Notes under the pieces: model-generated
What the model saw: only the letters and a program-made list of their open reading frames with translations
Databases searched by the model: none
What the model was told of the DNA's origin: nothing
In this document: positions 5,789 through 21,040 of the stretch, piece after piece
Position numbering within the stretch: position 1 is the first letter of the stretch
Layout of the letters: each line of letters begins with the position of its first letter
Made by a program: the position numbers and the translations under genes
From: a virus
Reading direction: 5' to 3' (one strand)
IMG/VR virus record: IMGVR_UViG_3300048672_000535
Location: 1-34,816 of that record
Length of the DNA stretch: 34,816 nucleotides

Positions 5789-6142
5789 TCAATCGTTAGA
5801 TGTAAAAGGTACTTCGGAAACGTTCAGACAAAAACCACCATAGTAGCCATTATGCTCGTTATGCATAGACAGTGTGATTGGACCAACAGAAGTCATGATT
5901 TCCAGGAACTGAACTTCATGACAACCGTACTCAGCATCTGGAGCATCTGGAGCATCTATTACTTCATGTCTGATGTAACGAGCCCCGATATATTCTTTCA
6001 GATCATCACCATCATTAGACATGTAACGGTGTTCGCAACAAGACTGGCCAGCATCAGTGAAATTCAGACCCGAACCGTCTTCAAACCTGATGTGTAATAC
6101 ATCATTGAACAACAACACCTCAGAGATAACTCTGTCTTTCAT
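5789..6142 (-). CDS. Conserved phage protein, 117 aa (DUF7448-like)
   Basis: The segments TDAGQSCCEHRYMSNDGDDL and HNEHNGYYGGF are characteristic of a small phage family that I believe is catalogued as DUF7448. The Cys pair and several His residues could bind metal. I chose the ATG preceded by AGGA; an in-frame ATG eight codons earlier lies exactly six bases after the promoter -10 and could give a leaderless, longer form. Function unknown. Confidence 0.7.
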   Translation of the reverse strand: MKDRVISEVLLFNDVLHIRFEDGSGLNFTDAGQSCCEHRYMSNDGDDLKEYIGARYIRHEVIDAPDAPDAEYGCHEVQFLEIMTSVGPITLSMHNEHNGYYGGFCLNVSEVPFTSND

Positions 6143-6172
6143 CTTAATTCCTAAGTTTGTTTCCATGTTGGT

Positions 6173-13362: not shown

Positions 13363-13453
13363 TGGAGGAAGGCATCGGAGTCGAACCGAATCCCCGTCAA
13401 GGGACAATGGGATTTAGAGTCCCTTCCAGCATCGCCTGTCTGGTTTACCTTCC
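13363..13453 (-). tRNA. Amber suppressor tRNA-Ser(CUA)
   Basis: Acceptor GGAAGGT pairs with GCCTTCC, U73, encoded CCA. D-stem CCAG/CTGG. The anticodon loop is CTCTAAA, giving anticodon CUA. The variable arm is long (TCCC...GGGA), so it is class II, and the T-loop TTCGACT is canonical. The phage's own tRNA-Ser genes (GGA, UGA, GCU) share U73, GG-start acceptors and a very similar D-arm, whereas its Leu and Tyr class II tRNAs have A73. It should therefore be charged with Ser and read UAG. It stands alone, away from the main array. Confidence 0.9.
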
Positions 13454-15393: not shown

Positions 15394-16173
15394 ATGACCT
15401 ATAAAAGACTTTCTGCTTCTTGCTTAGACTGCAAAAAAGAAATTTCTAAAAATAATTTTCAAAGACACATAGATTCTTCATGTGGAAAACCATTTGTGAG
15501 ATCAGAAGAATATGAAGACCTTAAAATACGATCAAATTGTATCAAGTGTGACAAATTCTGTGAAAATCATAATTCGCTCACGCAACATGAAATAAGATGT
15601 AAAGGTCCTATAATCAAAACATGCGAATATTGCAATACAAAATTTTCAAATAAAAACAAGAAGGTTAGATTTTGTTCTTATGAATGCAGAAGAAATAAAC
15701 CATTATAGCAAAAACACAAAGATTCTATAGCAAAAGGAATGCAACGAGCAGTGAAAGAAAATCCTGATTCTTATGCAGGCGGTTACAATAGAGGTAGAGT
15801 CAAATCATTAACTTGCTCAAATGGATTTACGGTTCTTGGGAAATGGGAACAAACTTTTGTAGAGTTTTGTCTATCAAACAACATTGAAATTCAACAACCT
15901 AATACTGGATTTTCGTACGAGTGGAATGGTTCTAGAACTTACTTTCCAGATTTTTATCTTCCGCATTTAGACCAATGGGTTGAAATCAAAGGATATGAAA
16001 CTGAAAGAGATAAAGCAAAATGGGATTCGATGATCAATTTTCACAAGAAGAATCTTAGAGTCATTAAGCAAAAAGAGATGAAAGATCTGAATGGTACAGC
16101 GTGTTGGATTCGAACCAACGGTGGGATTTCTCCGGCAGATTATGAGTCTGCTACTCTCGGCCAACTGAGTTAA
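15394..16173 (+). CDS. HEG2: EDxHD-type homing endonuclease with one in-frame TAG
   Basis: 259 codons if TAG at codon 105 is sense. The N-terminus has two C2H2-like fingers (CLDCKKEIS..H..C and CIKCDKFCE..H..C) and a third Cys-rich knot (CEYCNTKF..FCSYEC). The C-terminal half has the Vsr-like nuclease pattern GKWEQTFVEF, then TYFPDFYLP, then WVEIKGYETERDKAKW. The TAG sits in RRNKPL-TAG-QKHKDSIAKGM, where relatives usually have Ser or Thr. The natural end appears to be near KEMKDLN; the last ~28 codons are read from the antisense of the element's tRNA, so the stop has been lost or borrowed. Confidence 0.85.
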
Positions 16174-16179
16174 CGCTGC
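16092..16179 (-). tRNA. tRNA(CAU) carried by homing element A
   Basis: Acceptor GCAGCGT/ACGCTGT, A73, CCA. Anticodon loop CTCATAA, canonical T-loop TTCGAAT. The variable region is 15 nt, unusually long for a Met or Ile2 tRNA. It overlaps the 3' end of HEG2 on the opposite strand. Confidence 0.85.
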
Positions 16180-20366: not shown

Positions 20367-20455
20367 TGGAGGAGAGAGTCCGTCCCGACCGGAATGCCAT
20401 CACTGACACCAACTGTTTAGCAAACAGCGCCTGCGCCCGGGCAGGTTCACTCTCC
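20367..20455 (-). tRNA. tRNA-Ser(GCU)
   Basis: Acceptor GGAGAGT with one mismatch, U73, CCA. Loop TTGCTAA, long variable arm. T-loop GTCGGGA (G54/G58, U55) with GG in the D-loop. Confidence 0.85.
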
Positions 20456-20599: not shown

Positions 20600-20808
20600 C
20601 AAATTATGATGGGTGTTTTGGTGATAAGGAACACCCAAGGAATCCTCACTGGGCGATCAAGCCGCCATCAGGTATGTATCAGCGTTTGCCTTTACTTTTG
20701 TTTGCTTCTTCGGCCGGGATATCCCAACCCTTTGGCATGTGCCTGGCTTCTGCGTTGCCAAACTGTCCGTGTCCATACTCATTGCGAGTTCGAATCTAGT
20801 TCAGCCCC
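20600..20808 (-). ncRNA. ssrA: tmRNA coding piece (permuted ssrA), tag ANADTYLMAA
   Basis: Starts GGGGCTG then a GATTCGAAC element, as in bacterial tmRNA 5' ends. A pseudoknot-like segment (CATGCC...GGGTTGGGATATCCC) leads to the resume codon GCA. The tag frame 20657-20689 encodes ANADTYLMAA and ends in TGA, close to the bacterial ANDENYALAA. After it come a GGCG/CGCC stem and a GGGTGTT/AACACCC hairpin. There is no 3' tRNA-like end downstream; it lies upstream instead. The 3' limit is estimated. Confidence 0.85.
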
Positions 20809-20937
20809 ATCAACAAGAAACTTCGGAATATATGGACAAAATATAACACCAGAAACATCACCATTCCCATCAACAGACACGATAGGAGAATAATTTTCAA
20901 TCTCGTAGTGTGTGCCTTTGTCTATCAAGTTATTCAT
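20779..20937 (-). CDS. Possible 52-aa protein in the tmRNA intervening segment
   Basis: ATG preceded by AAGGA, 13 nt after the tmRNA acceptor CCA. The frame covers the whole intervening segment and runs 30 nt into the coding piece before TGA. Composition looks coding (SVDGNGDVSGVIFCPYIP). Translation would compete with tmRNA processing. It may also be chance. Confidence 0.45.
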   Translation of the reverse strand: MNNLIDKGTHYEIENYSPIVSVDGNGDVSGVIFCPYIPKFLVDGAELDSNSQ

Positions 20938-20949
20938 AAAATTCCTTTT

Positions 20950-21040
20950 TGGTGGAGCTGGGCGGTACTGCCCCGCCGTGACTCACACATTTCTTTTCAC
21001 TTCACGGATCCAAAGATCCATACAGTCATTAGGTAATCAG
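20950..21040 (-). ncRNA. ssrA: tmRNA acceptor piece (permuted ssrA)
   Basis: Ends GGCGG-GGCAGTA-CCGCC (T-arm), CAGCTCC, A73, CCA. The acceptor pairs with GGGGCTG of the coding piece and creates the G3:U70 pair that marks alanine acceptors. Helix 2 is also formed across the two pieces: TCCGTG here with CACGGA there, and TGTGAG with CTCGCA, correctly nested. Thus the gene order is 3' piece, 141-nt spacer, 5' piece. The 5' limit is estimated. Confidence 0.83.

Follow-up and report, generated by a model that had tools for sequence, protein, structure and literature searches.

The locus considered here raises two questions: whether a circularly permuted tmRNA is encoded within a phage tRNA cluster, and what lies between its two pieces. 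The window, by which we mean the whole stretch of DNA analysed, is an entire IMG/VR viral contig of 34,816 bases (GC 41%). Its phage genes encode an ATPase, NAMPT, an endolysin, a 2OG oxygenase and a tail-fibre-like protein, and there is a DNA primase match. A dense tRNA cluster occupies the minus strand, with the tmRNA gene inside it (minus strand, about 21,020-20,611).

A permuted tmRNA gene in the window

A sequence-only reading of the window had proposed a circularly permuted tmRNA in a T4-like phage and had suggested a permuted-tmRNA covariance model, for instance ARAGORN, as a check. The Rfam family tmRNA_permuted (RF04321), whose cut-off is 47 bits, matches with 68.5 bits (window-wide E = 2.5e-11), from 21009 to 20657 on the minus strand and over the full model length (1-213). 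ARAGORN, which by default does find permuted tmRNAs of other phages, misses this gene with default settings; at a relaxed threshold, one of several calls of low confidence is a permuted gene encoding the tag ANADTYLMAA. A one-piece tmRNA was also considered and rejected, the corresponding model (RF00023) yielding merely a 14-bit scrap elsewhere in the window. In RNAcofold, the two pieces paired unprompted into an acceptor stem of 7 bp, a T-stem of 5 bp and an outer helix 2 of 6 bp.

All elements that had been named were located, and the existence of a permuted tmRNA gene on this phage contig is confirmed. The acceptor piece comes first, exactly 141 nt before the coding piece; GGGGCTG and CAGCTCC form an acceptor stem with G3:U70; the helix-2 strands CTCGCA/TGTGAG and CACGGA/TCCGTG pair across the pieces in the correct nesting; and the tag ANADTYLMAA is encoded by a GCA...TGA frame. 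Some details had to be corrected: the gene lies on the minus strand, its T-loop is GGCAGTA and not TTCRANY, and the coding piece runs on through a terminal hairpin that the sequence-only reading had left unmentioned. The parts of the gene are as follows.

20950-21020, minus strand: acceptor (3') piece, encoded first (RF04321, RNAcofold; exact 5' end predicted)
21008-21003, minus strand: helix-2 strand TCCGTG, acceptor piece
20987-20982, minus strand: helix-2 strand TGTGAG, acceptor piece
20977-20961, minus strand: T-arm GGCGG-GGCAGTA-CCGCC, acceptor piece
20960-20954, minus strand: acceptor strand CAGCTCC, then an encoded ACCA up to 20950, acceptor piece
20809-20949, minus strand: intervening segment (IVS) of 141 nt, with predicted excision during maturation (sequence)
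20611-20808, minus strand: 5' (coding) piece (RF04321, coordinates)
20808-20802, minus strand: acceptor strand GGGGCTG, 5' piece
within 20611-20808, minus strand: D-arm-like GAACTAGATTCGAA, 5' piece
20788-20783, minus strand: helix-2 strand CTCGCA, 5' piece
20771-20766, minus strand: helix-2 strand CACGGA, 5' piece
20762-20756/20737-20731, minus strand: pseudoknot-1-like stem TTTGGCA/TGCCAAA, 5' piece
20657-20689, minus strand: tag reading frame with resume codon GCA, ANADTYLMAA and stop TGA (RF04321, relaxed ARAGORN)
20611-20636, minus strand: 3'-terminal hairpin GGGTGTT...AACACCC of the coding piece (coordinates)

The phage origin of the contig is supported, and its T4-likeness is putative: no structural hallmark such as gp23 was found among the scanned ORFs of this 34.8-kb fragment. 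The best match of the window's AAA-ATPase is Ochrobactrum phage vB_OspM_OC, filed under Kyanoviridae, and the nearest phage by NAMPT is Acidovorax phage ACP17; neither has a permuted tmRNA over the cut-off. Searches by DNA, tag sequence, AAA-ATPase, nested ORF (see below) and 5'-piece motif returned no close relatives of the window. SmpB, which the sequence-only reading had advised looking for, is absent from the window contig and from 18 further IMG/VR records in which our pattern scans had found loci, all of these contigs being fragments. Therefore, the window's tmRNA presumably employs the SmpB of the host.

Several other features of the window were noticed in passing. Two adjacent ORFs at 15394-16173 (plus strand) resemble a zinc-finger part and a homing-type endonuclease part and overlap a minus-strand tRNA-Met (16092-16179), possibly representing a homing endonuclease gene beside a tRNA. 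A sequence resembling tRNA-Ser(GCT) lies at 20369-20455 (minus strand); its acceptor ends pair (GGAGAGT/ACTCTCC), its T-arm is odd, and both ARAGORN and Rfam miss it. Outside the main tRNA cluster, ARAGORN calls a tRNA with anticodon CUA at 13363-13453 (minus strand), which it names tRNA-Pyl and which is a possible amber suppressor.

A small ORF nested in the intervening segment

The sequence-only reading gave the length of the 141-nt gap and left out the ORF inside it, which we consider the most interesting part of the locus. The IVS starts AAAAGGAATTTTATG and contains the following features.

20943-20947, minus strand: Shine-Dalgarno-like AAGGA, 5 nt before the ATG, inside the helix formed by the IVS ends (sequence)
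20779-20937, minus strand: nested small ORF of 52 codons plus TGA, MNNLIDKGTHYEIENYSPIVSVDGNGDVSGVIFCPYIPKFLVDGAELDSNSQ (layout and codon-usage statistics)

The ORF starts 12 nt past the CCA and its frame is open through the whole IVS, so that the last nine codons and the stop sit in the tmRNA 5' piece, with the stop 28-30 nt inside. An ORF of this layout, with both ATG and Shine-Dalgarno (SD) sequence, arises in 0.5% of shuffled IVS (P = 0.005). Codon usage is gene-like: the ORF scores 0.119 per codon, compared with 0.106 at the 5th percentile of the window's genes and −0.086 at the 95th percentile of wrong frames, and it exceeds stop-free shuffles with P = 0.003. Statistically, the window's IVS is more than a spacer and has the layout of a small gene.

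Recurrence of the layout in other phages

We surveyed IMG/VR by pattern scans (CTCCACCA ... GGGG...TTCGA), followed by a filter for acceptor and T-stem pairing, and selected and binned the loci by IVS length. Some pattern matches are false (L060, for example, has tRNA genes between the motifs), and the sequences are partly related, hence not independent. After filtering, at least 248 distinct phage permuted tmRNAs remained, a count that includes the window and Pelagibacter phage Mosig. ORFs were counted if they were SD-led, started no more than 31 nt from the CCA and stayed open to the IVS end. Among the matches listed, 23 of 53 distinct phage copies with an IVS of 122-160 nt carry such an ORF, against a shuffled expectation of 0.9 (maximum 4 in 100 runs); another count gave 23 of 54 against 0.8. 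The excess is smaller for IVS of 85-122 nt (9/92 among the matches listed, expected 3.8), and short IVS of 15-85 nt show no enrichment (3/102 among those listed, expected 4.2).

These ORFs, about 26-78 codons long, make up at least ten unrelated families; none has a nuclease match, and several look like single-pass membrane proteins. The placement of the SD and start codon (ATG at +10 to +14 after the CCA, with AAAGGA-type leaders) is alike in the window and in the families under selection. Selection was assessed on 13 non-overlapping pairs from eight families, the window's ORF not being among them. Pooled pS is 0.575 and pN 0.180, with 131 synonymous and 190 non-synonymous differences (binomial P = 4e-22 when substitutions are treated as independent). 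The excess is absent from the other two frames of the same sequences (pS/pN of 0.28/0.23 and 0.19/0.26). Judged by these substitution patterns, the eight families, taken together, are under purifying selection at the protein level. The loci that carry IVS ORFs are, by model score, otherwise ordinary permuted tmRNAs: of the eleven whole records scored with RF04321, all at 97-154 bits, ten bear an ORF and one (L155) has a free-standing copy, and default ARAGORN calls all the ORF-bearing loci given to it (L021, L063, L036 and L350) permuted.

Three of the IVS-ORF families have free-standing homologues in other contigs, on the same strand and upstream of the tmRNA.

L155: family B, free-standing, immediately ahead of the acceptor piece; IVS of 53 nt
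L201: family F, free-standing, immediately ahead of the acceptor piece; IVS of 60 nt
L164: family B, free-standing 578 nt upstream; IVS 66 nt
L423: family A, free-standing about 1 kb upstream; IVS 112 nt

The simplest reading of these arrangements is that neighbouring small genes have moved into or out of the IVS more than once. A further candidate family, K (...WYYTENEWSRLGMLGPLPPERNKQ...), is found in several IVS, where it lacks its own start codon, and as free-standing genes at other sites. A conserved WYYTENEWSRLGMLGPLPPERNKQ-like peptide was seen in the IVS of L011, L012, L030, L034, L037, L045, L059, L352, L407 and L459, in frame with the acceptor piece and mostly lacking a start codon, with free relatives in L354, L182 and L403.

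All nested examples come from metagenomic contigs. No convincing match to the IVS-ORF families searched turned up among named phages, and a joint search with eight IVS-related families likewise produced no match in named phages. A locus in an Alteromonadales MAG contig (L247/L270; CALMJT010000228.1) has a permuted tmRNA of 148 bits whose IVS encodes MKPTLLYYLFEGKRFSGKRYGMYKWTKERYQILYDVE; it is probably a phage contig in a bacterial bin and was left out of the survey count. In another phage permuted tmRNA (L015:6061-6207), the IVS holds a tRNA-Val (gac) call at 6101-6170, resembling a published case of a tRNA within an IVS (PMC11915505).

Against this background one may ask whether the window's IVS is a spacer only, its ORF being an untranslated chance frame within a true permuted tmRNA gene. 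The ORF has no homologue in any search, PHROGs and Pfam included; its single-sequence AlphaFold model is a low-confidence beta hairpin (mean pLDDT 67); open frames that start with ATG appear in 6% of shuffled IVS when no SD is required; and the IVS of Mosig, Stenotrophomonas phage Marzo and Mesorhizobium phage Cp1R7A-A1 lack a convincing ORF. However, the rarity of ATG plus SD in shuffles, the gene-like codon usage and the placement shared with the families under selection all argue against a spacer, and we regard this explanation as unlikely.

Type and integrity of the window's tmRNA

In the permuted tmRNAs of bacterial genomes (40 parsed, mostly alphaproteobacterial), the T-loop is as a rule GGCGGTA or GGCAGTA, and the GGCRGTA type is found in nearly all alphaproteobacterial copies parsed. 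Permuted tmRNAs over the cut-off were present in 105 of 115 sampled alphaproteobacterial genomes. The notion that GGCAGTA represents a defect was rejected, as GGCAGTA/GGCGGTA is the usual loop in Alphaproteobacteria. By this sequence motif, the window's tmRNA is of the alpha type, which suggests, without proving it, that the phage has an alphaproteobacterial host.

The gene is nevertheless divergent. Its RF04321 score is lower than those of other intact phage copies (77-154 bits) and of most alphaproteobacterial copies (111-166 bits), and GTCAC stands ahead of the T-stem in place of the conserved GGAC, which is usual in this class of RNA without being strictly required. Partial decay is possible because of this low score and the altered GGAC, although the deviation occurs in an otherwise intact gene and is within the tolerance of RF04321. 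A stronger version, in which the tmRNA is decaying or non-functional, for example drifting after capture from an alphaproteobacterial host, could also account for the failure of default ARAGORN, but the 7-bp acceptor stem, G3:U70, CCA, helix-2 strands, resume codon, tag, stop and hairpin are all intact, and the two pieces pair even though their sequences diverge from every relative found. We therefore consider a decaying gene distinctly improbable.

Tag endings were tabulated for the phage permuted tmRNAs parsed from the matches listed: LAA is found in 187 of 213 and MAA, the ending of the window's tag, in five. An MAA ending could alter protease handling, a point in favour of a decoy or dominant-negative tmRNA that is charged or enters ribosomes and there inhibits or redirects host trans-translation, for which the CDS-less tmRNA of mycobacteriophage DS6A, as cited in PMC11915505, provides a precedent. 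Unlike that of DS6A, the window's gene encodes its tag in full, from resume codon to stop codon, making a decoy very unlikely. Finally, a chance juxtaposition of tRNA-like fragments, conceivable in a region so dense in tRNA genes, is in effect excluded by the significance and full-model extent of the RF04321 match.

Relation to known systems

The sequence-only reading named no precedent for a two-piece tmRNA in a T4-like phage, but one has already been published: the T4-like methylophage Melnitz, which infects OM43, has one (Buchholz et al. 2022, PMC9004378). The same study searched 18,146 phage genomes and counted 53 two-piece structures, of which 50 belong to marine or aquatic phages. Two-piece tmRNAs are also annotated in Mosig (Kyanoviridae, SAR11) and Marzo, and our survey gave at least 248 copies, that of Mosig included.

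The closest bacterial counterpart is the Caulobacter-type ssrA (RF04321; alpha_tmRNA, RF01849), which has the same piece order, G3:U70 stem, cross-piece helix 2, GGCAGTA T-loop, tag frame and hairpin. The window's gene differs from it in being phage-encoded, in its ORF-like IVS of 141 nt (most alphaproteobacterial IVS parsed are 10-80 nt) and in its lower score. Melnitz and Mosig, both T4-like marine myophages, encode permuted tmRNAs as the window does, but with a different tag and T-loop; the IVS of Mosig is 44 nt and without ORF, and no IVS gene is described in PMC9004378. Permuted tmRNAs are likewise present in the isolated phages of Menderavirus (Marzo, at 119 bits, and IME-SM1) and in Cp1R7A-A1 (99 bits), the latter with an alpha-type T-loop like that of the window; in contrast to the window, their IVS contain no convincing ORF.

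Foreign sequence has been recorded in the IVS of permuted tmRNAs, namely, a tRNA-Ala gene and a repetitive element (PMC11915505). These cases share with the window the housing of foreign sequence, but theirs are not protein genes. Homing endonuclease genes occur in self-splicing group I introns of the tmRNA T-loop (PMC11915505) and, like the IVS ORFs, are protein genes in an excised segment of an RNA gene. The IVS ORFs differ in that they are short, lack a nuclease match and reside in the gap between two pieces instead of an intron. The two-piece phage tmRNA is thus of a known kind, and what appears to be new, going by sequence comparison, is the putative protein gene nested in its IVS. No description of such a gene was found in the open-access literature searched, including the most complete recent tmRNA survey (PMC11915505).

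Proposed maturation and coupling

The best explanation of the locus, and in our judgement a probable one, is a two-piece phage tmRNA of alphaproteobacterial type whose IVS is laid out as a small gene. By analogy with bacterial permuted tmRNAs, the precursor would be transcribed with the tRNA cluster, host RNase P would cut before G20808 and the 3' end would be formed at the CCA at 20950. The two pieces would be held together by the acceptor stem and helix 2, and the host alanyl-tRNA synthetase would charge the RNA with alanine, after which EF-Tu and SmpB could employ it to rescue stalled ribosomes, adding the tag (A)ANADTYLMAA. The IVS would serve as a nesting site for phage microprotein genes, expressed from the precursor or from the excised segment.

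Pairing of the IVS ends may link the two products. In short phage IVS the ends are paired (mean duplex z of −3.5 over 102), and ORF-bearing IVS retain the end helix, usually with z of −1 to −5; in the window, AAAGGAATTT pairs with the GAAGTTTCTT region (z = −2.8). One side of the helix in ORF-bearing cases comprises the SD and often the start codon, the other the last codons, so that translation start and the fold that joins the tmRNA pieces would share bases. In addition, RNase P cleavage would render the window's nested message non-stop, because the stop codon sits in the mature tmRNA. The full-length nested product could then be made solely from precursor that has escaped cleavage, the remaining products being tagged by the tmRNA itself. 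Synthesis of the product and maturation of the tmRNA would consequently compete, coupling the small protein to tmRNA maturation. Families A, B and TM26 stop before the cleavage site, and such coupling would thus not hold alike for all. A broader proposition may be drawn from the sequence layout, in which microprotein genes would commonly nest in the permuted tmRNA genes of phages and both products would be coupled by the SD-sequestering helix, by cleavage that removes the stop in overlapping cases such as the window's, and by tagging of the truncated product by the mature tmRNA. The small protein would then be a timed or self-limiting signal, in the manner of arfA but within the tmRNA gene; we offer this tentatively, as a reading that is more likely wrong than right.

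The usual view of phage tmRNAs is that they are host-derived spare parts. If the IVS routinely carries small protein genes, a segment thought to be discarded would be a coding locus, and microprotein families would surface inside an RNA gene, where standard annotation can miss them. This would also account for the length of some phage IVS, which is a multiple of that of most bacterial IVS. The nested arrangement would provide a directly testable system for the competition between RNA processing and translation on one transcript.

Unannotated tmRNAs in isolated phages

Permuted tmRNAs that lack annotation were noticed in several isolated phages. Cp1R7A-A1, whose host is an alphaproteobacterium, has its copy at 58735-59021 of MT188704.1. 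Others are found in Xanthomonas phage X1 (121009-121337, 77 bits) and Xanthomonas phage Rb1 (16300-16605, 103 bits).

In Shigella phage Ag3 (FJ373894.1, 136385-136569; L002:1361-1545), a gene-free region of this Ackermannviridae phage holds a tmRNA-like stretch that lacks annotation and has a clear tag frame, ANDDVVLMAA*. It scores 29.8 bits with RF04321, below the cut-off, and has no obvious tRNA-like domain. Similar DNA is present in Klebsiella, Enterobacter and Salmonella relatives. The related phage CBA120 is reported to have an unusual gene-less region of 2 kb (PMC3184105). The same gene-free region of Ag3 contains a sub-threshold match to the sRNA family STnc100 (L002:2177-2286; 33.7 bits, cut-off 47).
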